Below, piece by piece: positions 46,810 through 59,077 of a stretch of 64,000 nucleotides of DNA. Made by a program: the position numbers and the translations under genes. Origin of the DNA: Rasiella rasia (GTDB lineage: Bacteria > Bacteroidota > Bacteroidia > Flavobacteriales > Flavobacteriaceae); NCBI RefSeq assembly GCF_011044175.1, contig NZ_CP049057.1:1007501-1071500 (forward strand). The letters are read 5' to 3'. The stretch's first letter is position 1, and each line of letters opens with the position of its first letter. The notes beneath the pieces were generated by a model. The model was not told the DNA's origin. It saw only the letters and a program-made list of their open reading frames with translations, and did no database searches.

Positions 46810-48282
46810 TTATCGCGAATAATTAGGCGCTTCTTTTGTAATCGTTACATCATGCGGGTGACTTTCATGAATACCAGAAGCTGTAATTTTCACAAACTTT
46901 CCAGTTTCTTTGAGAGTATCAATGTCTTTGCTTCCGCAGTACCCCATACCAGCTCTTAAACCTCCAATAAATTGCGTCATACTTTCTAGCAACTCACCTT
47001 TATATGGCACACGACCAACAATACCTTCAGGGACTAATTTTTTAATATCATCTTCTACATCTTGAAAGTAGCGGTCTTTAGAACCTTTTTTCATGGCCTC
47101 AACAGATCCCATACCACGATAGCTTTTAAACTTTCGTCCTTCGTAAATAATTGTTTCACCTGGAGACTCTTTGGTTCCCGCAAGTAACGAACCTAGCATT
47201 ACACAGTCTGCTCCTGCTGCAATGGCTTTAGGTATATCGCCTGTGTATCTAATTCCGCCATCTGCAATTACTGGAACACCTGTACCTTTAATGGCTGCTG
47301 CCACCTCTAGTACTGCCGAAAATTGTGGAAATCCTACACCAGCAACTACTCGAGTGGTACAAATAGACCCTGGGCCAATACCTACTTTAACGGCATCTGC
47401 TCCTGCATCTACTAAGTATTGAGCGGCCTCGGGTGTGGCAATATTACCAACCACAACATCAAGCTCAGGAAATTTTTTCTTTACTTCTTTTAATACAGAT
47501 ACCACACCTTTGGTATGGCCGTGAGCTGTATCAATAATTACTGCATCTACTTGTGCATGTACCAATGCTTCTGCTCGCTCTACAGCATCTGCGGTAACAC
47601 CAAGCGCGGCAGCCACACGTAATCTACCGTAATTATCTTTATTAGCTATAGGTTTTTGAGTAAGTTTTGTTATGTCTCTAAAAGTAATTAGGCCTAATAG
47701 CGTACCATCGTCTTCTACTACTGGTAATTTTTCAATTTTGTTTTGCTGAAGAATTATCTCTGCTTCCTTTAGTGAAGTTCCCTCTGCTACTGTAACTAGA
47801 TTTTCTGAAGTCATAATATCGCTAAGCTTGCGATCGTAGTTTTTCTCAAATCTAAGGTCTCGATTGGTTACAATACCTATTAGTTTACCAGCATCATCTA
47901 CTATTGGTATTCCGCCAATACTGTATTCGCGCATTGTTTTTTGCGCATCACCAACATTGTTATCTCTTTTAAGCGTAACAGGGTCTTGAATCATTCCACT
48001 TTCAGCACGCTTTACTTTACGAACCTCGGCAGCCTGTTGCTTTATCGTCATATTTTTATGCAATACCCCAATACCTCCTTCTCGAGCGATTGCAATTGCC
48101 ATTGCACTCTCTGTTACCGTATCCATGGCGGCAGAAACAATTGGAACATTAAGTGTAATGTTTCGAGAAAATTTGGTTTTAATAGAAACTTCCCTTGGTA
48201 ATATTTCGGAAAAGGCAGGTACTAATAGTACGTCATCGTATGTTAAACCTTCGCCTAAAATTTTGTTTTCGTGTGCAGTCAT
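46810..48282 (-). CDS. guaB: Inosine-5'-monophosphate dehydrogenase
   Basis: 490 residues, standard length. Two CBS domains lie at about 95-205 inside the TIM barrel. The catalytic cysteine is Cys308 in [12 protein letters not shown], and the flap has [12 protein letters not shown]. It oxidises IMP to XMP with NAD, the committed step to GMP. Monocistronic with its own promoter element upstream. Confidence 0.98.
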
Positions 48283-48335
48283 CGCAATTAAATTAACTTC
48301 CGAAGTACCGGAAAGGGTTACTGTTTAATTGCATG

Positions 48336-48343
48336 CAAAGATA
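48336..48343 (-). promoter_or_regulatory. Promoter -7 element of guaB
   Basis: TATCTTTG on the minus strand, 54 bases before the guaB ATG at 48282. The spacing to the nearest TTG is short (14). Confidence 0.45.
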
Positions 48344-48585
48344 GTGCTTAAATATGACAAAATAACTTCTTTCTCATAAGATTGCCAATTACAGCAAATT
48401 AGCACAAAAAATTATTGTAACGCACTCACAATAATTAAACAAAAAACAGCCATTTTCTTCCTTGCTTTTTTGTGCGTAATTTTTAATTAAAAATACAATC
48501 TGTCAAGAGGTCATTTTTTTTCGATGAAGTCGTAATTTAGAATTGAATCCTTAAATACCTATTTATCAATATTTTACATCATTTT

Positions 48586-48662
48586 TTATTTAGAATAGGT
48601 CTTAATTAATGGTTTCTGAAGTGTTTATCGTTATTTAGAATAAATAAAAATAACTAATTTTG
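48586..48662 (+). promoter_or_regulatory. Promoter of the haem operon with a palindrome and a direct repeat
   Basis: TAATTTTG at 48655-48662 fits TAnnTTTG, 22 bases before the ATG at 48685. Where the -33 TTG should be lies a perfect palindrome, TTATTT-AGAAT-AAATAA (48631-48647). Twelve of its bases (TTATTTAGAATA) also occur at 48586-48597, 45 bases upstream, on the same strand. This is a good candidate for an operator of a Fur-like or other metal-responsive regulator. The rest of the 402-base intergenic region (48283-48684) is AT-rich and holds no gene that I can see apart from the guaB promoter. Confidence 0.5.
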
Positions 48663-48684
48663 TGCTCTCAAAACAATGGAATAG

Positions 48685-50814
48685 ATGCGCATAGTTTTAT
48701 TAAATATTTTTCTCTTCACAACCACGGTTATTTTTGCCCAAGTAACACAGAAAAGTGACTCTATTCTACCTGAAAAATTGGAAGAAGTGATTGTGACAGG
48801 ACAAATTAATCCGCAGTCCGTTTCAAAATCTGTCGTAGAAATAAAAGTAATTTCTAGAAAAGATATAGAGCGTCAAGCAGGAAATACACTTGCTGACGTG
48901 TTGAACACCACGCTCAACCTTACTATTACGCCTAATACCTCTACTGGTAAAAGTGGTGTTAGTCTTTTTGGGTTAGATAGTCAATACTTTAAGGTGTTAA
49001 TAGATAATATTCCCATAATTAACGAAGAAGGGGTTGGAAACAATACCGATTTAACGCTCATTAATCTAGATGATATTGAACGGATTGAAATTGTGGAAGG
49101 TGCTATGGGTGTACAATATGGTTCTAATGCCGTTTCAGGAATCATTAATATTATTACAAAAAAGTCCTCACGCAATGATTGGGATATCACTGCGTACGTT
49201 CAAGAAGAAACCGTAGGCAGTGAGTACGAATGGTTTGACAAAGGCCGTCATATCCAGTCATTGAAGGTGGGGCACAATTTCTCGGAAAATTTCTATGCAA
49301 ATGCGGTATATACCCGAAACGACTTTGCTGGATTTTTTAACGATCGCCAAGGAGAAAATTACGATGTAAATGATGGGTTACGTGGTCATGAATGGTTGCC
49401 CAAACTACAGCAGAATACAAAAGCGCTTCTTGCCTACAAAAAAGAAAACTTCAACCTTTTTTATCGTTTCGATTATTTGAACGAGCGCATCGAGCGTTAT
49501 AATGAAACGGTAGACCTTAATGAAAATGCGGCTACTGCCACGACTAATCCTTCGGCATTAGACGAAATTTACACCAATAATCGTTTGTATCATCATGTAA
49601 ATGGTACAGGAACTATCTTCAAGAAAATAGCGTATAATGTCTCCGTTTCTTATCAAGAACAAACAAAAGACTTAGAGCGCTACACCTACCGAATTAGAAG
49701 TGGGCAACAAGAAAATATTGAAGAAGGCGAATACCAAAGTCGTAGTGCCTTTTTCTCACGAGGAACTTTCAGCAATATTATAAACACCTCCAAAGTAAAT
49801 TTACAATTAGGCTATGAGCTTACCAATGAAAAGGGCTCGGGATCGTCGCTGGCAATAGTTATTGGACCAGAAAGTAATGAAGTAACTCAAAAATTAAATA
49901 ACTACGACTTTTTTGCTGCGTCTGAACTGCAACTTACCAGTCGTTTCTCGCTTAGACCCGGTTTTAGGGCCTCTTTTAGCAATTTGTTTGAGGCACAATA
50001 TATAGGTTCTTTAAGCGCCAAACAGACCTTAGGTGACAGCTGGGAGCTTCGGGCGATATTAGGATCTGCTAACCGTACACCAAATTATAATGAGCTGTAC
50101 ACGTTTTTTGTAGATGTTAACCACAACGTGCAAGGTAATCCAGCATTAAAACCAGAAAAAGGATACTCTGCCTTTCTACATATAAAGAAGAGAAGCACAT
50201 TAGCGAATAGCGCTATACGCTTAAAAAATAAGTTAAGTTTTAACTATTTAGGGTTACAAGACAGAATTGAATTGATCGTCGTAAATCAAAGCCCGTTAGC
50301 TTTTCAATACAATAACATCGATAGATTTAGAGCGGTTGGAGTGTTTTCTGAAAATGAAATTTTCTACAAGAATTTTAAAGGTCAGTTAGGTGCTTCAGTA
50401 CAGGGAGTTTCAAAAGTATTAGATAGTAATACGCAAAGTAATGATGACTTTCTTTTTAACCTTCAGCTTAATTCAAATCTAGCATATACCGCACCAAAGT
50501 GGAATACAACATTTTCGGTGTTCTTTAAGCATATTGGCAAGCAACAGCAATTTGTTGAAAAAACAAATGCCGAGGGCAATCAAGAATTTGTACAAGGAGA
50601 AACGGAAGCCTACAGTTGGATAGATGCTACGATTAACAAATCATTTTTTGACGGTGCTTTTATTACCACAGTGGGGGCGAGAAACCTTTTTGATGTAACT
50701 CAAGTAAATACAACAGCTTTTGAAGGTGGTGCACACAACGGCCCACCAACACAAATTTCATTGGGTTACGGACGCTCCTACTTTTTAAAATTAACCTATA
50801 ACCTATCATTATAG
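48685..50814 (+). CDS. TonB-dependent outer-membrane receptor, HmuR-like
   Basis: 709 residues. The signal peptide ends IFAQ. Near residue 30 there is a TonB-box-like KLEEVIVTGQ, followed by the plug domain (about 45-160: RKDIERQAGNTLADVLN, IERIEIVEGAMGVQYGSNAVSGIINIIT). The barrel runs to the C-terminus with the usual last aromatic strand (YFLKLTYNLSL). The two HmuY-like genes directly behind it, with only two bases to the first, point to haem as substrate. The FRAP/NPNL haem-receptor motifs and their histidine are not clearly seen, so the ligand is inferred from context. Confidence 0.88.
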   Translation: MRIVLLNIFLFTTTVIFAQVTQKSDSILPEKLEEVIVTGQINPQSVSKSVVEIKVISRKDIERQAGNTLADVLNTTLNLTITPNTSTGKSGVSLFGLDSQYFKVLIDNIPIINEEGVGNNTDLTLINLDDIERIEIVEGAMGVQYGSNAVSGIINIITKKSSRNDWDITAYVQEETVGSEYEWFDKGRHIQSLKVGHNFSENFYANAVYTRNDFAGFFNDRQGENYDVNDGLRGHEWLPKLQQNTKALLAYKKENFNLFYRFDYLNERIERYNETVDLNENAATATTNPSALDEIYTNNRLYHHVNGTGTIFKKIAYNVSVSYQEQTKDLERYTYRIRSGQQENIEEGEYQSRSAFFSRGTFSNIINTSKVNLQLGYELTNEKGSGSSLAIVIGPESNEVTQKLNNYDFFAASELQLTSRFSLRPGFRASFSNLFEAQYIGSLSAKQTLGDSWELRAILGSANRTPNYNELYTFFVDVNHNVQGNPALKPEKGYSAFLHIKKRSTLANSAIRLKNKLSFNYLGLQDRIELIVVNQSPLAFQYNNIDRFRAVGVFSENEIFYKNFKGQLGASVQGVSKVLDSNTQSNDDFLFNLQLNSNLAYTAPKWNTTFSVFFKHIGKQQQFVEKTNAEGNQEFVQGETEAYSWIDATINKSFFDGAFITTVGARNLFDVTQVNTTAFEGGAHNGPPTQISLGYGRSYFLKLTYNLSL

Positions 50815-50816
50815 TC

Positions 50817-52232
50817 ATGAAAATATTGAAAAAATATAGCACTATTATTCTATTTATAGCAATTGCCACGTTAGTTAGCTCATGTAGTGAAGACGATAGT
50901 TCTGCGCTAACAAGTGACCCGTTTGTTGTAGCTTTTCAAAATTTGTCTGCTAACTTAGGCGAGATTGAAGCAAGTCAAAAGATTAATTTGGTATACTCAG
51001 AAACTACTACCCAACCAGGTAGTGTTACACTTTCATTAGCCCCTACTAATGCGGTATATGGTGAAGATTTTACCACCAATCCGCCTGCTGAAGGAAATAC
51101 CCTCACACTTCCGCTCGCGCAAAACGAAAACGGCACTAGTTTTAGTTTTATAAAACTTACTGAAGTATTTGACGAAACAGTTGAAATTAATTTTAGCATA
51201 ACTTCTATAGACTATCCTAACGCTCAAGTACAGGGAAACACTTCCTTTTTGTTGAATAGTTCAGCATCACTGGGTCGCGGATTTATTCCTACCGTAGGCG
51301 GTCCCAACCAACCCAACCAGGTGTACATAGATTTAAGTACTGAAGAACAAACAGCTATTAAAAGAGATGCGTGGGATTTAGGATTTTATGGAGGTTTAGA
51401 TTTCCGTGTAGGGATTAATGGTTCAATTTATATGGCTGCTGCTGCTTTAGAAACTTCAGATATCGATGCTGTAACAGAAGCCAGCGTTGCAGAGCTTCAA
51501 AGTCAAGTTGCGGTAGGTACATTCGATCCTGCCAATGAAATTTACATCGATAACCCAAATGGTGATATAAAGAAAACTGCCATCGCATCAATTAGTGAGA
51601 CAGACAGTGAAAATCAAGTCTATTTAATTAATCTTGGCTATTCTGTTGGAACTGAGAGTCCTGCCCCTGGGGCTGTTGCTGTTGCTGGCGAAGCAAGAGG
51701 ATGGAAGAAAATTCGCGTCTTACGTCAAGCTGATGGATATCTGTTGCAGTATGCTAACCTGAACGATACAACACATCAAGAAGTTTTTATTCCAAAAAAT
51801 GCGGCTTACAATTTTACCTTCTTCAGTTTTGACACAAACACTACAGTAGCTGTAGAGCCAGCGTTTGAAAATTGGGATATCAACTTTACCGTTTTCACGA
51901 ATGTCTTAGATGGAGCAGGGTCTTATGGCTTTAGCGATGGGGTGTTACATAATCGCAAAGGCGGCGTTACTGTTTACTCGGTAGACACAGCGAATATCGC
52001 CTACGACGATTTCCAAATGAGTGACGTAATCAGCTCAAATTTTAATGAAGACCAACGAACAATTGGAAGCTCTTGGAGAGATGTAATTAATGACGACAAA
52101 ACCCTAATAGACAATATCTTTTACATTATAAAAGGTACCAATGGAACAATCTATAAACTAAAATTTACCGCCTTACTTAGTGACAGTGGAGAGCGCGGTT
52201 TTCCAGAATTCAAATACAACTTATTACAATAA
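50817..52232 (+). CDS. HmuY-like haem-binding lipoprotein
   Basis: 471 residues; lipobox LVSSC (Cys23) followed by SEDDSS, an acidic start that often marks surface-exposed Bacteroidota lipoproteins. Residues 30-145 look like an immunoglobulin-type or Calx-beta-like sandwich. Residues 155-470 carry the HmuY pattern: a WDLGFYGG strand, an EPAFENWDINFTVFT strand, and a GVLHN loop shared with the next protein. HmuY takes haem from host or environmental haemoproteins and hands it to the TonB receptor. The haem ligands are unknown; the histidine in GVLHN is a candidate. Tightly coupled to the receptor gene. Confidence 0.78.
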   Translation: MKILKKYSTIILFIAIATLVSSCSEDDSSALTSDPFVVAFQNLSANLGEIEASQKINLVYSETTTQPGSVTLSLAPTNAVYGEDFTTNPPAEGNTLTLPLAQNENGTSFSFIKLTEVFDETVEINFSITSIDYPNAQVQGNTSFLLNSSASLGRGFIPTVGGPNQPNQVYIDLSTEEQTAIKRDAWDLGFYGGLDFRVGINGSIYMAAAALETSDIDAVTEASVAELQSQVAVGTFDPANEIYIDNPNGDIKKTAIASISETDSENQVYLINLGYSVGTESPAPGAVAVAGEARGWKKIRVLRQADGYLLQYANLNDTTHQEVFIPKNAAYNFTFFSFDTNTTVAVEPAFENWDINFTVFTNVLDGAGSYGFSDGVLHNRKGGVTVYSVDTANIAYDDFQMSDVISSNFNEDQRTIGSSWRDVINDDKTLIDNIFYIIKGTNGTIYKLKFTALLSDSGERGFPEFKYNLLQ

Positions 52233-52248
52233 AAACAAACTATACAAA

Positions 52249-53487
52249 ATGAAAAAAATTATACTATCGGCCGTAGCATTGGCCACAACATTATTCGGTA
52301 CTGCTCAAGAAACAGTAAATATCTCTATGAGCGAAGGATACTCAGATCAAGTATATTTTAAACTTGAAGATCAATCTATAAATACATTTGAAGCCTCTAG
52401 CTGGGATATTGCTTTTTTACGAATTGATCCTCAAAATATTGGTATTCGAGTTAACGACGGAGCAGGCATACAGGTTTTTGAAGCTGCTAATGACCCAGCA
52501 GAATTTGACAATATAGCTATTGCAAATGAAGGTGATTGGACACCTCTATACAATGACGATACTAATTGGGACAACGGAGCCTTTATGCAAGGTTCTGCTA
52601 CGTTTGGATGGGGAGAATACAACCCAGCAACACATCATGTAGAGGGAACTATAGTTTTTGTTCTTAAATACGCAGATGGCACTTACGTGAAGTTTATTAA
52701 CGAAGATTATTTTGGAGCCTATACTTTTAAATATGCTACTTGGAATGGTACTGATTGGGTAGGTGAAACAACCAAAGTTGTTGAAAACGCAAGCAACCCA
52801 GACAATAGATATAACTACTATTCATTCACAAATAATGAAGAGGTTATTGCAGAGCCAGCATTAGACAATTGGGATTTTGTATTTACTAAATATACTACGT
52901 ACCTAGATCCCCCTGCAGCGTATTATAATGTAACTGGTGTGTTACACAATCCGAATGTAACGGTTGCTGAAAATGAAGAAACTTCAGGAGCTGGAGATCC
53001 AGATGACCAAGTGTATCTTGAAGAAATCAATACTATTGGGTACGACTGGAAAGCATTTAATGGCACCGGATACGACGTAAATAGTGACATGGCGTATTAT
53101 GTTAAAACTACTTCAAACACAGTTTACAGAATGGTTTTTACTGAATTTAATGGTACTGCAACAGGGGACATAGCATTCGATTTTGAAGATGTTTCTGAGC
53201 AATTAGGTTTCGAAACTATTTCTGAAGGCATCTCTTTTGGTATGTATCCAAATCCATCAACAAACGGCGAAGTAACCTTAGTATATGATATTTCAACAGG
53301 AAATTCAGAAAAGAATACTGTTGAAATTTATGCGATGAATGGAACGCGTGTTTTCTCTGAAGAAGTAACAAGTCAAGATGGTTTCTACAACAAAACAATA
53401 AATGTTTCTTCACTTCGAAGTGGCGTGTATGTTGTAAACTTCATTTCAGGAGGCAGCAGTATTTCTAAAAAGTTAATTATAAAATAA
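52249..53487 (+). CDS. Secreted HmuY-like protein with a T9SS type A sorting tail
   Basis: 412 residues from ATG 52249; an earlier in-frame ATG lies inside the previous gene. The signal peptide ends GTAQE. Residues 25-335 carry HmuY-like features: SSWDIAFLRID, EPALDNWDFVFTKYT, TGVLHNPNV, and a YRMVFTEF strand. The last 75 or so residues form a type 9 sorting domain (GMYPNPS, SGVYVVNF, KKLIIK end), so the protein should pass the outer membrane through T9SS. It is a second haemophore-like protein that may be released or surface-bound by another route than the lipoprotein before it. Confidence 0.8.
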   Translation: MKKIILSAVALATTLFGTAQETVNISMSEGYSDQVYFKLEDQSINTFEASSWDIAFLRIDPQNIGIRVNDGAGIQVFEAANDPAEFDNIAIANEGDWTPLYNDDTNWDNGAFMQGSATFGWGEYNPATHHVEGTIVFVLKYADGTYVKFINEDYFGAYTFKYATWNGTDWVGETTKVVENASNPDNRYNYYSFTNNEEVIAEPALDNWDFVFTKYTTYLDPPAAYYNVTGVLHNPNVTVAENEETSGAGDPDDQVYLEEINTIGYDWKAFNGTGYDVNSDMAYYVKTTSNTVYRMVFTEFNGTATGDIAFDFEDVSEQLGFETISEGISFGMYPNPSTNGEVTLVYDISTGNSEKNTVEIYAMNGTRVFSEEVTSQDGFYNKTINVSSLRSGVYVVNFISGGSSISKKLIIK

Positions 53488-53494
53488 CAGACTA

Positions 53495-54397
53495 ATGAAA
53501 AAATTATTTCTATCGGTAGTTGTATTGGGACTTGCTATTTCAGCATCGGCCCAAAACAAACAAAAGCAAGATGCAGAAGCCATAAAAAAAATGTGTGGAT
53601 GTTATGAAGTTACCTTCAATTTTGCTGAAACTTTCAATTACAGTACTGATTCCTTATACAAGCCTTCTAAAACGAAAGTTGACAAAGGTTTAGAATGGGC
53701 ACAGCTTGTAACAGATGAAGATGATAAAATTCAAATCCAACACATCTTGCAAGTTGGAAATCCTGCCAAACCAATGATTATTAAGCATTGGCGCCAAGAT
53801 TGGTTATTTGAAAATACAGATTTGTATACCTATAATGCAGATAATAAGTGGACCTATGTTAAGAAGTCAAAGAACGATGTAAAAGGACAATGGACACAAA
53901 AAGTATATCAGGTAGATGACAGTCCGCGTTATGAAGGTACATCTTCTTGGGTACACGTAGACGGTAAAAGTTATTGGGAAAATACAACCCCTGCTCCACT
54001 CCCAAGACGTGAGTACACAAAACGGAGTGACTATAATCTCACCATGCGTGGCAACCGACAAGAAATTACAGATTTTGGATGGGTACACGACCAAGACAAT
54101 TCAAAAATTGTACGTGAGTCTGGAAAAGAAGATGTTATCCTTGCCAAGGAAAAAGGCTATAACACCTACGTAAAAGTAGACGACAGTAGATGTGCTGCTT
54201 CAATGAAATGGTGGAAAGACAACGAAGAAAAATGGGCATTTGTACGCACTAAATGGGACGAAGTTTACGGGCGTAACAAAGACCTTGTATTAGAAGAAAA
54301 AGTAGATAACAAAGTACTATACAAATATCTTTTTGATGAAGAATACACGCAAAAAGACGAGGTGAATACCGTTATTGAATCTTTCGTGAAAAAATAA
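53495..54397 (+). CDS. Exported DUF6607-like protein
   Basis: 300 residues. The signal peptide ends SASAQ. The mature protein starts with a charged helix and a double-cysteine motif MCGCYEVTFNFAETF (near 32-46), then a Trp-rich body (HWRQDWLFEN, TKWDEVYGRNKDLVLEE). This matches the family I recall as DUF6607. The function is unknown; its place in the haem operon suggests a role in periplasmic haem or iron handling. It starts seven bases after the HmuY-like gene. Confidence 0.75.
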   Translation: MKKLFLSVVVLGLAISASAQNKQKQDAEAIKKMCGCYEVTFNFAETFNYSTDSLYKPSKTKVDKGLEWAQLVTDEDDKIQIQHILQVGNPAKPMIIKHWRQDWLFENTDLYTYNADNKWTYVKKSKNDVKGQWTQKVYQVDDSPRYEGTSSWVHVDGKSYWENTTPAPLPRREYTKRSDYNLTMRGNRQEITDFGWVHDQDNSKIVRESGKEDVILAKEKGYNTYVKVDDSRCAASMKWWKDNEEKWAFVRTKWDEVYGRNKDLVLEEKVDNKVLYKYLFDEEYTQKDEVNTVIESFVKK

Positions 54398-54401
54398 AAC
54401 G

Positions 54402-55904
54402 ATGAAAATATCAAAAATAGTTGCAGCTGTAATTGTGCTGTTAAGTGTTAATGTTGCAGGAACCGCTCAAGAAGAAAATATTCTTCTTGAGCGATCCTTT
54501 TGGAAAGGAAATCCGAATTTACAAACAGTACAACAGAAAATTTCCGAAGGAGCAAACGCCACAGCACTCAATGCTAACGCCTTTGATGCGGTAGTTTATG
54601 CATTATTAGAGAAAGCTGAAGACGATGTCGTCAAGCATCTCTTGTCGCTACCCGGAAACCCTGTAAATAAAAAAACACACGATAGCCGAATTTATTTACA
54701 CTGGGCGGCTTATGCTGGACAAACAAACGTAGTAAAGCACCTATTAGAACAAGGTTCGTCTGTAACAGCATTAGATAGCCATGGGTATACACCACTCGCC
54801 TTTGCTGCCAATGCAGGACAAAAAGATAGCGCTATCTACGAAGCATTTGAGAAATACGGTGTAAACCTTACAGAAGAGAAAACAGAACAAGGTGCTAACC
54901 TAATGCTGTTAGTAGCTCCTGCACTATCTAACAAAGAGGAGCTAAACTATTTTATTAATAAAGGTTTCGATGTATCGAGTACAGATAATGACGGTAATGG
55001 TATTTTTAACTATGCAGTTAAAAAAGGAAATATTGATTTTCTAAAACTACTTGTAGCAGAAGGGGTTGATTACAAAACGGTGAATAAACAAAACGGAAAT
55101 GCATTTCTCTTTGCGACGCAAGGTGGTCGTGGGTATAGCAATCCGTTAGCCGTTTACGAGTATTTAAAAAGCTTGGGGTTAGAGCCCAATGTTGTTACAA
55201 AGCAAGGATACACACCTTTACATAGGTTAGCATTTGGTACTACAGACACTGCTATTTTTAACTTTTTTATCAATGCTGGTGCCGATGTTAATCAGAAGGA
55301 CGCAGATGGTGCAACACCTTTCCTGAATGCTGCTTCGCGTAATAAATTAGAAATAGTACAGTTACTGTCTAAGCATACCAAAAACTTCAACGAAGCGAAC
55401 AATAACGGTCAAACTGCATTGATGCTCGCTGTACAAAGAAATACACCAAATGTGGTTTCCTTTCTTTTGAAAAAAGGTGGCAATGCGCAAGTAGAAGACG
55501 CTCAAGGCAACTCCATAGCTTCTTATTTGGTAACATCATTTAATGAAAAGAACTCCGCAGCTTTTGATACAAAGCTAGCGTTGCTACAGCAACAAGGGGT
55601 AAATTTAAGTAAGACACAGTCTGAAGGCAATAACCTATATCATTTAGCGGCCAAAATAAACAGCCTAGAATTATTTAAGCGCCTGGCAACCTTTAAAATT
55701 GATATTAATGCCAAAAACGATGAAGGTCTTACTCCATTACACCTAGCGGCTATGAAAGCCGACGATGACAAGGTAATGAAATACCTTATCTCTCAAGGCG
55801 CCGATGCTACTATTACAACAGATTTTGAGGAAACTGTTTATGATTTAGCAACAGAGAATGAGCAATTACAGAAAAAGAAAACATCTTTAAACTTTTTGAA
55901 ATAA
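54402..55904 (+). CDS. Exported ankyrin-repeat protein
   Basis: 500 residues. The signal peptide ends GTAQE. From about residue 60 to the end there are roughly ten ankyrin repeats; the clearest are LHWAAYAGQTNVVKHLLEQG, DGATPFLNAASRNKLEIVQL and LTPLHLAAMKADDDKVMKYL. Ankyrin stacks bind partner proteins, so this may hold components of the haem system together in the periplasm. It starts four bases after the DUF6607-like gene. A periplasmic ankyrin protein in such an operon is uncommon but has precedent in peroxide-protection proteins. Confidence 0.85.
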   Translation: MKISKIVAAVIVLLSVNVAGTAQEENILLERSFWKGNPNLQTVQQKISEGANATALNANAFDAVVYALLEKAEDDVVKHLLSLPGNPVNKKTHDSRIYLHWAAYAGQTNVVKHLLEQGSSVTALDSHGYTPLAFAANAGQKDSAIYEAFEKYGVNLTEEKTEQGANLMLLVAPALSNKEELNYFINKGFDVSSTDNDGNGIFNYAVKKGNIDFLKLLVAEGVDYKTVNKQNGNAFLFATQGGRGYSNPLAVYEYLKSLGLEPNVVTKQGYTPLHRLAFGTTDTAIFNFFINAGADVNQKDADGATPFLNAASRNKLEIVQLLSKHTKNFNEANNNGQTALMLAVQRNTPNVVSFLLKKGGNAQVEDAQGNSIASYLVTSFNEKNSAAFDTKLALLQQQGVNLSKTQSEGNNLYHLAAKINSLELFKRLATFKIDINAKNDEGLTPLHLAAMKADDDKVMKYLISQGADATITTDFEETVYDLATENEQLQKKKTSLNFLK

Positions 55905-55905
55905 T

Positions 55906-56391
55906 ATGAAGAGCTTATATAAAATAATCCCAGCACTTATGGTTGCTGGATTCTTGTTAACCGCATTTACAACTACAAATTCGAAGGCTGTAAAATGTAT
56001 GATACAGATGACTAACTACACTGGTGAGGGTGCGTATGTGGTAGTTTCTCTACTTAATCCGGAAGGTGAATATGAAGAAACTCTTTATGTGCAAGGAAAA
56101 GATAGCGAGTGGTATAGCGAAATTTCAGAATGGTGGAAATTTTACGGTAAACGCCGTCCAAATATCGATGCTATTTCTGGTGAAACCATTAGTGGTGGTG
56201 AACGTACCGTTACTATCTTAAAAATACCAGAAAATAAGATTGATAAGGGATATACGTTACGTTTTGAGACATCTGTAGAAGATCAAAACTATTACACAGA
56301 CGACTTACAGTTTCCGCTTACTACTGAAAATTTAAAAAGCAAAAAAGAAGGAAAAGGCTGGATACGATATGTTCGGTTACTTGCTAATTAA
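55906..56391 (+). CDS. Exported DUF2271-like protein
   Basis: 161 residues. The signal peptide is about 1-25 (FLLTAFTTTNSKA). The beta-rich body has VKCMIQMTNYTGEGAYVVVS, an EWWKFYGKRRPNIDAISGETI segment and a final RYVRL strand, as in DUF2271. These small periplasmic proteins often lie beside PepSY membrane proteins, and do so here, ten bases before one. A role as partner of the PepSY reductase is inferred from the context only. Confidence 0.78.
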   Translation: MKSLYKIIPALMVAGFLLTAFTTTNSKAVKCMIQMTNYTGEGAYVVVSLLNPEGEYEETLYVQGKDSEWYSEISEWWKFYGKRRPNIDAISGETISGGERTVTILKIPENKIDKGYTLRFETSVEDQNYYTDDLQFPLTTENLKSKKEGKGWIRYVRLLAN

Positions 56392-56400
56392 TCTAGGAAC

Positions 56401-58590
56401 ATGACTATTTCTATCTGGCGATATAGTCATCTACTATTGGCTATCGTAGCCTCTTTATTTTTAATTGTTGCCTCCCTAACGGGAGTTATTTTGGCTATAG
56501 AGCCTATCTCTAATCAGGCAAAGGGGCACGATGTGGTACAGCTTGATGAAGTGTCTTTAGCTACTACAGTTACGGCCCTTACCAATAATTTTGATGAAGT
56601 ATTCTCACTAGAAGTTACCCCCGCTAATTTTGTTAAAGCGTCGGTGTTGACAAAAGATTTTGAGACTAAAGACCTGTACATTAATGCGAGTACTGGTGAA
56701 ACTTTAGCCGAGGTTGCCGAGAGACCTTCTATTTATAGTTTTGCCACCAACTTGCACCGCTCTCTTTTTTTAAAGAGCATTGGGAGGTTTTTTGTTGGGT
56801 TAGTTTCACTATTGCTAGTTCTCATTACATGTTCAGGAATTGTTCTGTTAGTAAAAAGACAAGGTGGAATTAAACGCTTTTTCTCAAAGGTTCAGAAAGA
56901 TTATTTCGAAATGCGCTTTCATGTGGTTTTAAGTCGGTGGTTGTTTATCCCAATTATCATTGTGGCTGCGACGGGTGTTTTTCTTTCTGCTGAAAAGTTT
57001 AATTTGTTGCCAGATACCGCACTTCAGTTTGAAGAACAGCCAAAAAATAGTGCGGCCATAGCGTATGCAACGCACACAGAAATTCCACTCTTTCAAAAAA
57101 CGAAACTTTCCGAAGTACGTTCTGTAACATTTCCTTTTTCTAAAGAACCCGAAGAGTACTTCCAAATTGCTCTCAAAGACAAAGAAATTAAGGTGCATCA
57201 ACACACGGGAGCTATTATTAGTAGTGCCTCTTACCCTTTTGTGGTGCTCACCTCGAGATTAAGTTTTGCCTTGCACACTGGGGAAGGCAGCATCTTGTGG
57301 TCCATTATTTTATGTATTGCTAGCGCCTCTATATTATTTTTTATGTATTCGGGCTTTGTTATGACTTTAAAGCGCATTAGAAAAACAAAACCGAGTACTA
57401 CCATGACAGATAAAGATGCATGCGAATATATTATTCTAGTTGGTTCAGAAACAGGAACGACCTACGGCTTTGCTCAGCAATTCTGCGATGCATTAACTCT
57501 AGCTGGTAAATCGGTTTTTATTACAGAGCTTAATTCGTATACTGTTTTTAAAAATGCCACACACATATTCGTGTTTACTGCTACCTATGGTGAAGGAGAG
57601 GCAACAACCAATGCGCGAAAATTTGAGTCAATTTTTCCTACCATTCAACAACCAAACCCTATTAAATATACAGTGGTTGGTTTTGGCTCTTTAGAATACC
57701 CAGACTATTGTCAGTTTGCAATTAAAGTTGATGGTCTCTTGCAAGGTCAAGAAGGATTTTCACCACTCTTACCCCTCTATAAAATTAATAATGCCAGTGA
57801 AGTTGCATTTAGAGATTGGGTAAAAAACTGGAGTATTGCAACTACCACACCTGTACAGCTAAAAGTTTCAGAATCGAAAAAGAAAAGGCTTTCATTTAAA
57901 GATTTTGAGGTCATTGAACGAACCTCAACCAATCTAGACGAAACCTTTTTACTTAAACTAAAACCGCTTAAAAGAACAACGTTCTCTTCTGGAGATTTAC
58001 TTGCTATCCTTCCTGAAAATAGTGAAGCGGCACGACAGTATTCTATTGCAAAAGTAGACAAGGCAGTATTGCTGAGTATTAAAAAACATGAAAAGGGGCA
58101 GGTATCGCCCTATTTGTACAGTCTAGAAAAAGGAGAATTGCTTCGAGCAGCGATAACTGTAAATCGCCGATTTCATCTTAGAAAAAAAACACCCGCTATA
58201 TTAATTGGTAATGGCACTGGAATTGCCCCTTTTTTAGGAATGATTCAAGAAAACAGAACAAGCGAAATCAATTTATTTTGGGGCGGACGTACAATGGCCT
58301 CTTCAAATATATATTCTTCAATTATTTCGAAGGAACTTTCAGCAAATAAGAACTTAAAAGTTCATGCTTGTTATTCGCGTGAAGGAAAAAAGCAATATGT
58401 TCAAGACCTTATTGCGGTGAATAAAGAATTGTTATTAGCCACTATAGAAAAGCAAGGAGTGTTAATGATTTGCGGCTCTTTAGCCATGCAAAATGATGTA
58501 TTAAACACTTTAGATGTGTTACTAAAATCGTCTAAATATAGCTTAGACGAGTTACAACATAGAGAACAACTATTTATGGATTGCTACTAG
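56401..58590 (+). CDS. PepSY membrane protein fused to a flavodoxin and a CPR-type FAD/NAD(P)H reductase
   Basis: 729 residues. The N-terminal PepSY_TM region (about 1-335) has four membrane helices with periplasmic PepSY loops and conserved histidines (RYSHLLLA, FALHTGEGS). A flavodoxin domain (about 346-475) has SETGTTYGFAQQF for FMN and ATYGEGEA. The reductase part (about 490-729) has RQYSIA for FAD, GNGTGIAPFLG for NAD(P)H, a CGSLAMQ segment, and a FMDCY end. The protein can carry electrons from cytoplasmic NAD(P)H through FAD and FMN to the membrane. In this operon the likely acceptor is haem iron or ferric iron in the periplasm. Confidence 0.9.
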   Translation: MTISIWRYSHLLLAIVASLFLIVASLTGVILAIEPISNQAKGHDVVQLDEVSLATTVTALTNNFDEVFSLEVTPANFVKASVLTKDFETKDLYINASTGETLAEVAERPSIYSFATNLHRSLFLKSIGRFFVGLVSLLLVLITCSGIVLLVKRQGGIKRFFSKVQKDYFEMRFHVVLSRWLFIPIIIVAATGVFLSAEKFNLLPDTALQFEEQPKNSAAIAYATHTEIPLFQKTKLSEVRSVTFPFSKEPEEYFQIALKDKEIKVHQHTGAIISSASYPFVVLTSRLSFALHTGEGSILWSIILCIASASILFFMYSGFVMTLKRIRKTKPSTTMTDKDACEYIILVGSETGTTYGFAQQFCDALTLAGKSVFITELNSYTVFKNATHIFVFTATYGEGEATTNARKFESIFPTIQQPNPIKYTVVGFGSLEYPDYCQFAIKVDGLLQGQEGFSPLLPLYKINNASEVAFRDWVKNWSIATTTPVQLKVSESKKKRLSFKDFEVIERTSTNLDETFLLKLKPLKRTTFSSGDLLAILPENSEAARQYSIAKVDKAVLLSIKKHEKGQVSPYLYSLEKGELLRAAITVNRRFHLRKKTPAILIGNGTGIAPFLGMIQENRTSEINLFWGGRTMASSNIYSSIISKELSANKNLKVHACYSREGKKQYVQDLIAVNKELLLATIEKQGVLMICGSLAMQNDVLNTLDVLLKSSKYSLDELQHREQLFMDCY

Positions 58591-58597
58591 TAAAATC

Positions 58598-59077
58598 TTA
58601 ATCGGTATGAGAAACTTCAAGTTTTTCTCTATACTTAAGTCTTGTTAAGCCTGCCCATTGTAATAGCAATTCAGTATCCTCTGGAGAAAGATTTCCGTGA
58701 AGCCATGTATACGAATCTAACGGCATCTCACCTTCTTCAACCATTTCGATTAGCTCTTCTAACTTATGGTCTTTTTTCTTAGCAGAATACGTATTCCATT
58801 CTGAAACGTTAAAATGCCCTTTACCGTGCTCAATATGCTCATCTAACCACAACGAAAACGGCGCAATTTCAGAATACCAAGGGTATTGTGTTTGGTTACT
58901 ATGACAATCGTAACAGTTTGATTTTAAAATTTCTGCAACGGCCAAACTTGGTTTTGTTTCATTTTCAAAGGGGATTACACTTTCATAACCTCCGTTATTT
59001 TTTTCGGGACGAATAAACTGAATAATCACCAATGCAATTAGGGCCAGTACTAAAATGATTTTGATTATTTTTTTCAT
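58598..59077 (-). CDS. Membrane-anchored haem-binding domain protein (CxxCH)
   Basis: 159 residues: an N-terminal anchor (about 5-22), then the Haem_bd pattern with the cytochrome c motif C-Y-D-C-H near 55-59 (LKSNCYDCHSNQTQYPWYSEIAP) and a SPEDTELLLQWA end. It covalently binds one haem in the periplasm. The gene is convergent with the haem-operon reductase (stop to stop seven bases), so it is not part of that transcript. Its start lies two bases after the 5'-nucleotidase-family gene, so it is transcribed with that gene. Confidence 0.88.
   Translation of the reverse strand: MKKIIKIILVLALIALVIIQFIRPEKNNGGYESVIPFENETKPSLAVAEILKSNCYDCHSNQTQYPWYSEIAPFSLWLDEHIEHGKGHFNVSEWNTYSAKKKDHKLEELIEMVEEGEMPLDSYTWLHGNLSPEDTELLLQWAGLTRLKYREKLEVSHTD

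Follow-up and report, generated by a model that had tools for sequence, protein, structure and literature searches.

The closest described counterparts of the operon considered here, a row of seven genes in a 64,000-nucleotide stretch of the Rasiella rasia genome (hereafter the window), belong to several systems for haem and iron uptake. In Riemerella anatipestifer, the rhuH/rhuR-rhuA locus encodes the haemophore RhuH, which binds haem through His96 with a dissociation constant of 3.4e-11 M, extracts it from haemoglobin and is exported in outer membrane vesicles; function is reported as conserved in three homologues, a Fur box lies between rhuH and rhuR-rhuA, and RhuH homologues occur mainly in Weeksellaceae and Flavobacteriaceae (PMC11967795). 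In strain CH-1, B739_1415-1417 (RhuH-RhuR-RhuA) are upregulated in iron limitation (PMC5429918). Flavobacterium psychrophilum hfpR-hfpY, encoding a TonB receptor and an HmuY protein, are induced by iron starvation, and Zhu et al. (2022) remarked that genes for electron transfer lie close to a related haem locus (PMC9331221). HmuY and a receptor are also part of hmuYRSTUV in Porphyromonas. PepSY flavinylation clusters, in which a PepSY_TM protein with an NAD-binding domain adjoins DUF2271, have been proposed for iron reduction and linked to iron and TonB receptors; covalent attachment of flavin mononucleotide (FMN) at a [S/T]GA[S/T] site was demonstrated on a DUF2271 protein (PMC8238504). PepSY membrane proteins beside a TonB receptor are further represented by the siderophore reductase FoxB, by HiuB of the siderophore system HiuABC (PMC13001220) and by XusC of the siderophore system XusABC (PMC13142918).

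We consider it fairly probable that the Rasiella locus couples an operon for haem acquisition, under the control of Fur, with a module that supplies electrons across the membrane. Its parts are of known kinds, the combination is new as far as seen, and the joining is common in Flavobacteriaceae. In Riemerella, rhuH is divergent and genes resembling the reductase module lie elsewhere (B739_0173-0177), whereas all seven genes are colinear in the window. The hfp operon differs in its order, receptor-DoxX-HmuY, with neighbours on other transcripts. Unlike the PepSY flavinylation clusters, the operon adds ankyrin, HmuY and RhuH genes, carries SGET in place of [ST]GA[ST], and contains neither ApbE, which is frequent but not obligatory in those clusters, nor DUF4198 among its Pfam matches. 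The FoxB chain has 382 residues, whereas the window PepSY protein has 729, adding a cytosolic flavodoxin-NAD(P)H half, and its neighbours are of the haem type. In contrast to Porphyromonas, the genome has no CobN-type HmuS, the one hmu gene of this kind that was searched for. No paper describing a RhuH-ankyrin-DUF2271-PepSY operon was found in the open-licence literature, as judged by titles, starts of abstracts and term counts, and the term "DUF6607" had no match there.

The seven open reading frames (ORFs) span positions 48685-58590 of the window, in a genome that consists of a single contig of 3.39 Mb. The intergenic gaps are 2, 16, 7, 4, 1 and 9 bases, the 16-base gap being counted with the ATG at 52249 as the start of HmuY2. 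A preliminary description, made from the sequence alone, had listed seven colinear plus-strand genes with named domains, and both the ORF list and Pfam bear this out; the close spacing that it gave also stands, with the range amended from 2-16 to 1-16 bases. The features are as follows.

48631-48653 (no strand): Fur-box-like operator TTATTTAGAATAAATAAAAATAA; core conserved in relatives' intergenics, genome-wide pattern search
48655-48662 (+): candidate Bacteroidota-type -7 element TAnnTTTG (TAATTTTG); sequence match only
48685-50814 (+): TonB-dependent receptor in the HmuR/RhuR position; Pfam TonB plug E 3.8e-21
50817-52232 (+): HmuY-like protein 1, probable lipoprotein (Cys23); Pfam HmuY E 8.4e-27
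52249-53487 (+): HmuY-like protein 2 with a type IX secretion tail; HmuY E 1.3e-7, Por_Secre_tail E 4.1e-14
53495-54397 (+): DUF6607, RhuH-family haemophore with predicted ligand His98; Pfam DUF6607 E 4.7e-100
54402-55904 (+): exported ankyrin-repeat protein; Ank_2 E 6e-48, 5 stretches
55906-56391 (+): DUF2271 exported protein, putative FMN carrier with site DAISGETISGG; Pfam DUF2271 E 1.3e-38
56401-58590 (+): PepSY_TM-flavodoxin-NAD(P)H reductase of the inner membrane; PF03929 (PepSY_TM) E 6.6e-36, flavodoxin E 1e-15, NAD_binding_1 E 9.9e-8

Judged by sequence and predicted structure, the DUF6607 protein belongs to the RhuH haemophore family. It matches PDB entry 8xjc ("haemophore") over residues 10-299 with a phmmer E of 2.6e-86 (profile E 2.7e-111), and its AlphaFold2 model (mean pLDDT 83) superimposes on 8xjc with TM scores of 0.83/0.89 and 46% identity to RhuH in the structural alignment. 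The next structural matches of the model are far weaker, namely 7sfp (E 1e-4) and nitrobindin entries (from E 1.5e-3). In the phmmer alignment to 8xjc, the modelled haem contacts H96, R143, Y144, R170, R183 and Q198 of RhuH, of which H96 is the ligand and the rest are modelled ligand or propionate contacts, correspond to H98, R145, Y146, R172, R185 and Q200 of the window protein, all invariant in both DUF6607 alignments. The preliminary description had suggested that the DUF6607 protein binds haem while regarding it as uncharacterised. The first claim agrees with the family, whose structure has been solved and whose function was tested in Riemerella (PMC11967795); the second falls with the 8xjc match, and DUF6607 as a family of no known function was rejected on the same ground. 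The closest DUF6607 proteins found are from Flavobacteriaceae bacterium UBA1903 (84%) and Leeuwenhoekiella palythoae (80%), same or very near genomes having possibly been left out.

Examination of relatives revealed that the haem genes and the electron-transfer genes are repeatedly linked. DUF6607 is present in 132 of 397 Flavobacteriaceae genomes and in 21 of 295 genomes of the class. Loci were located by searching genome contigs with a DUF6607-alignment profile, and the best 80 of 584 confirmed stretches were taken, a sample biased to close relatives because it is the best-scoring part. A second Flavobacteriaceae sample comprised 45 loci picked by hand, not at random, down the score list of the 132 positive genomes, overlapping in part with the first (together 125 loci); the outside-family sample comprised all 15 DUF6607-positive non-Flavobacteriaceae genomes of the class scan. 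Alignment A1 covers 9 of 21 loci and the window. HmuY was counted with profiles lacking the tail of the type IX secretion system (T9SS) and by a Pfam scan of receptor-adjacent proteins. Among the 80 loci, the trio of ankyrin, DUF2271 and PepSY genes lies downstream of DUF6607 on the same strand in 65, and part of it in 6 more. A TonB receptor is found within 7 kb of DUF6607 in 74 (divergent in 65) and HmuY within 7 kb in 73. Seventy proteins stand directly behind the nearest receptor; one (locus L097) was left out because a second ORF at that locus carried the receptor label, and all 69 scanned match Pfam HmuY. The hand-picked sample gave the full trio in 20 of 45 loci, a receptor in 36 and HmuY in 35. 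Across the two Flavobacteriaceae samples, 85 loci are full, and their median gaps are 4, 6 and 11 bases. The comparison of gene order proposed in the preliminary description revealed conserved linkage, and chance adjacency was rejected on this ground. The usual form is divergent, with DUF6607 and the trio on one strand and the receptor and HmuY on the other, reading away from them; a colinear receptor-HmuY-DUF6607-trio order is a minority (8 of 125 Flavobacteriaceae loci), and five of these eight have two HmuY genes like the window.

Further details of gene order were observed in the same loci. Outside Flavobacteriaceae (loci L143-L154), DUF6607 often has a TonB receptor in its vicinity with HmuY behind it, a further protein labelled as HmuY upstream and no reductase trio, where the HmuY label can include other T9SS-tailed proteins; in L149, an ORF upstream of DUF6607 scored weakly with the PepSY profile (54 bits versus about 1000). 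A gene of about 118 residues often follows PepSY in relatives (e.g., L075:15093-15455): in 24 of the 65 full loci, an ORF coding for 90-140 residues lies within 250 bases. The three such ORFs tested were DUF6686 (PF20391). A profile built from all 24 matches 35 ORFs in the 80 loci, and no gene of this type was found in the window.

Regarding regulation, 82 of the 92 divergent receptor/DUF6607 intergenics (those of 42-579 bases, from 97 loci with a divergent receptor) contain the core TTATTTAGA, against a mean of 1.3 and a maximum of 6 in mononucleotide shuffles. The core is part of an imperfect palindrome of 23 bases, whose window copy ends 31 bases before the receptor start and stands directly before TAATTTTG, a match to TAnnTTTG, which we take to be the -7 consensus. 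From base 3 to base 11, the operator is identical to the left half of ATTTAGAATTATTCTAAAT, the Fur box of Riemerella; the right half matches less well. Reports on the Fur box disagree: ATTTAGAATTATTCTAAAT is given in the results of PMC5609570 and ATTTAGAATTATCCTAAAT in PMC10986502, both of which resemble the window site, and GATAATGATAATCATTATC, which does not, appears in PMC7976709 and in the abstract of PMC5609570, a paper that also mentions a -7/-33 promoter type. A genome-wide search for the 23-mer, limited to one mismatch, revealed three places, and a reversed control pattern gave none. Besides the window operon, these are C1:2113442-2113464, with one mismatch and directly before feoA-feoB, and C1:2336748-2336770, with hemA on one side and, on the other, an AraC-type gene that precedes hemH (neighbours named by Pfam). 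Fur may bind the operator, the operon is probably iron-controlled, and the copy beside hemA suggests that haem synthesis shares this iron control. The preliminary description had called the locus an iron and haem operon. That assignment now gains two HmuY genes, the Fur-box-like operator and the linkage, and the iron response it implied would follow from the Fur-like site and from relatives.

The electron-supply module consists of the PepSY reductase, the DUF2271 protein and the ankyrin protein. The PepSY membrane half has four hydrophobic transmembrane-like segments, and His10, His119, His174 and His292 are invariant in 65 of 65 aligned proteins including the window; they may be haem ligands of the kind that FoxB has. 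By the VIA aligner, the best match of this half is FoxB (7abw) with Z 10.5, a root mean square deviation of 9.1 and 298 aligned residues (next entry Z 7.2). The cytosolic half resembles cytochrome P450 reductase, with CysJ below the cut-off. Cytochrome P450 reductase is the natural electron donor of haem oxygenase. The combination of a PepSY membrane half and a diflavin cytosolic half is in line with the preliminary view of a membrane enzyme that would move electrons outwards; the haems bound by PepSY, the direction of electron flow and its target are inferred. As for DUF2271, three sets of distinct proteins, the first two of which overlap, have the [ST]GA[ST] motif in 50 of 68, 13 of 22 and 17 of 19 members. 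Glutamate replaces the alanine in 15 of 68, 8 of 22 and 0 of 19, serine does so in 3 of 68, and 0, 1 and 2 proteins do not fit. The relatives' site is mostly DAITGAT[IV]SGG. A PDB search with DUF2271 gave no match. That DUF2271 holds haem, as previously supposed, was dropped, since the family carries covalent FMN (PMC8238504) and 50 of the 68 relatives keep the motif. The window DUF2271 protein may be flavinylated by the sole ApbE of the genome, located at C1:2949687, 1.9 Mb along the contig, and judged by eye to be a lipoprotein. The ankyrin protein has a signal-like N-terminus, also by eye, and may act as an adaptor of the module.

Haem is the presumed ligand of the receptor, which matches the Pfam plug and no barrel model. 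His480 sits between NRTP and GNPALKPE stretches, which we take to resemble a haem-ligand motif. Among 69 adjacent receptors, this column is occupied by His in 30 and by Tyr in the other 39; a simple FRAP-like pattern is found in 27 of the 69 and an NPxL-like one in 19. The position of Cys23 in HmuY1 is Cys in 69 of 69 aligned HmuY proteins, and a crude lipobox pattern fits 16 of 35. A PDB search with HmuY1 gave no match.

On these features, the following pathway can be proposed. The HmuY lipoprotein, the T9SS-secreted HmuY and the RhuH-type haemophore would capture haem at or outside the outer membrane, and the TonB receptor would import haem, or its iron, to the periplasm. The PepSY enzyme of the inner membrane would pass electrons from NAD(P)H to flavin adenine dinucleotide and FMN in its cytosolic half, then to two His-ligated haems in its membrane half and on to the periplasm. 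There, the DUF2271 protein, to which the sole ApbE of the genome would attach flavin, would pass them on to the ferric iron that the receptor supplies, and Fe(II) would then enter via FeoB, with the ankyrin protein probably serving as the periplasmic adaptor of the reductase module. The genome encodes FeoB once, together with one strong and two weak FecCD permease matches; the examined text of the FeoAB paper contains no link to haem. Searches of the genome for PF01126 haem oxygenase, HemS and CobN (PF02514) gave no match, HugZ and IsdG types being outside these searches; the release of iron from haem is thus unexplained, and the electron module is a candidate for it, nothing more. The operon would tie DUF6607 (still of unknown function in Pfam), DUF2271 and an exported ankyrin protein to one pathway, and unites, at one locus in many Flavobacteriaceae, proteins that catch haem with what looks like a full route for electrons to the periplasm. 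This bears on how Bacteroidota with no known haem oxygenase or HmuS free iron from haem.

Several observations weigh against this assignment. The window receptor does not reach the curated cut-off of any of the NCBIfam receptor models listed; the best of these is a vitamin B12 receptor, not a haem receptor, and the haem-receptor model TIGR01785 gives 63 bits against a cut-off of 317. The DUF2271 site reads SGET rather than [ST]GA[ST], with the last Thr kept, and ApbE lies outside the operon. For the match of the PepSY membrane half to FoxB, the VIA aligner's own note warns that Z below about 13 may reflect a common arrangement in helical folds. Foldseek alone gave no match for this half at E <= 0.001, and hmmsearch against FoxB is weak (E 0.0054). 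Linkage also has its exceptions. Neither a receptor nor HmuY was found near DUF6607 in 3 of the 80 and 7 of the 45 loci (first profiles; the flank is short in one of the seven), and DUF6607 is absent from the two other genomes of the window's genus that the 397-genome family scan included. Outside Flavobacteriaceae, the trio is present in 0 of 15 DUF6607 loci, with a receptor in 13 and HmuY in 12, so that the haem locus exists without the trio. HmuY, receptor and DUF6607 look like a wider core that the electron module joined within Flavobacteriaceae, an order of events inferred here without a tree.

The trio also exists apart from haem genes, and this bears on the alternative that survives best, in which PepSY and DUF2271 form a generic ferric reductase for any periplasmic ferric complex (siderophore, citrate or iron released from haem at another site), with the haem genes as simple co-regulated neighbours. 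DUF2271 scores above the cut-off in 48 of 149 Flavobacteriaceae genomes; 36 of these also have DUF6607. All 20 above-cut-off DUF2271 places not adjacent to DUF6607 were examined, and ankyrin-DUF2271-PepSY is present in 15. Nine of the 20 regions (L234, L238, L239, L241, L242, L244, L247, L248 and L250) share a second context, in which a TonB receptor and an exported protein of 424-463 residues precede ankyrin and DUF2271, with no DUF6607 or HmuY; PepSY comes next in eight, and the ninth (L247) has none by profile. One receptor of this context was scanned; it has 804 residues and, unlike that of the window, a carboxypeptidase-regulatory-like domain. The protein of about 450 residues has no Pfam match (3 of 9 scanned) and no PDB match (profile of five); that it is XusB-like is an unproven idea. 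In a further region (L249), an HmuY-receptor pair is divergent from the trio and DUF6607 is absent. In Riemerella CH-1, B739_0173-0177 encode a TonB-dependent receptor, a hypothetical protein, an ankyrin protein, a "predicted periplasmic protein" and a "nitric oxide synthase", all upregulated in iron limitation (PMC5429918), and Fur binds the B739_0173 promoter (PMC7976709). Gene names and order suggest that this is the same module as the window trio. The reductase module is portable and not haem-specific, and since the trio follows another receptor with neither DUF6607 nor HmuY, it need not act on haem. A generic role is also favoured by the trio behind another receptor and the exported protein in 8 of 20 regions, by the PepSY proteins HiuB (PMC13001220) and XusC (PMC13142918), which serve siderophores, and by the genome's small set of PepSY_TM genes: besides the one in the operon, which may thus have to serve other receptors, there is a single partial match. 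In contrast, 30 of the 48 DUF2271-positive genomes have DUF6607 within 7 kb, and the trio is co-operonic with the haem genes in the window and divergent from the receptor across the intergenic in most loci. We regard the generic role as possible, if rather unlikely.

A more specific proposal holds that periplasmic electrons free the haem iron itself, passing from NAD(P)H through the diflavin half, the PepSY haems and the DUF2271 FMN to haem on RhuH or the ankyrin protein, and yielding Fe(II) for FeoB with no need of a cytoplasmic haem oxygenase or HmuS. It is proposed on account of the P450-reductase-like cytosolic half and the lack of PF01126, HemS and CobN matches in the genome, and must be called speculative and improbable.

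It is very doubtful that the module instead guards haem or a haem enzyme, its electrons limiting haem-driven oxidative damage, or the ankyrin protein and flavoprotein delivering haem to an exported cytochrome. A gene for a PF14376 haem-binding domain abuts the operon end, and the ankyrin protein Cj1386 of Campylobacter is reportedly tied to haem traffic to catalase, which would favour such a role; the Fur-like operator in common with feoA points to iron supply, however, and the PF14376 profile matches in only 3 of 80 loci. The model of the preliminary description, in which DUF6607 and DUF2271 hold haem on a scaffold of ankyrin repeats while the PepSY enzyme reduces its iron, agrees with a haemophore family and with PepSY as electron source but is scarcely credible as a whole, because DUF2271 is a flavinylation substrate (PMC8238504) with a site conserved in most relatives and because the export of RhuH in vesicles of Riemerella (PMC11967795) makes a periplasmic scaffold doubtful; the ankyrin scaffold is a guess.

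In the surroundings of the operon, no RNA element reached the Rfam gathering score in 48200-58700. A consensus promoter scan gave 33 sites against a shuffle mean of 31.4, and terminator-like sites numbered 14 against 7.5; none of either was used. The PF14376 gene lies at 58598-59077 on the minus strand, convergent with the last gene of the operon at a distance of 7 bases, and it was the profile derived from this gene that gave the count among DUF6607 loci mentioned above. Upstream of the operon, an IMP dehydrogenase gene is encoded on the opposite strand.

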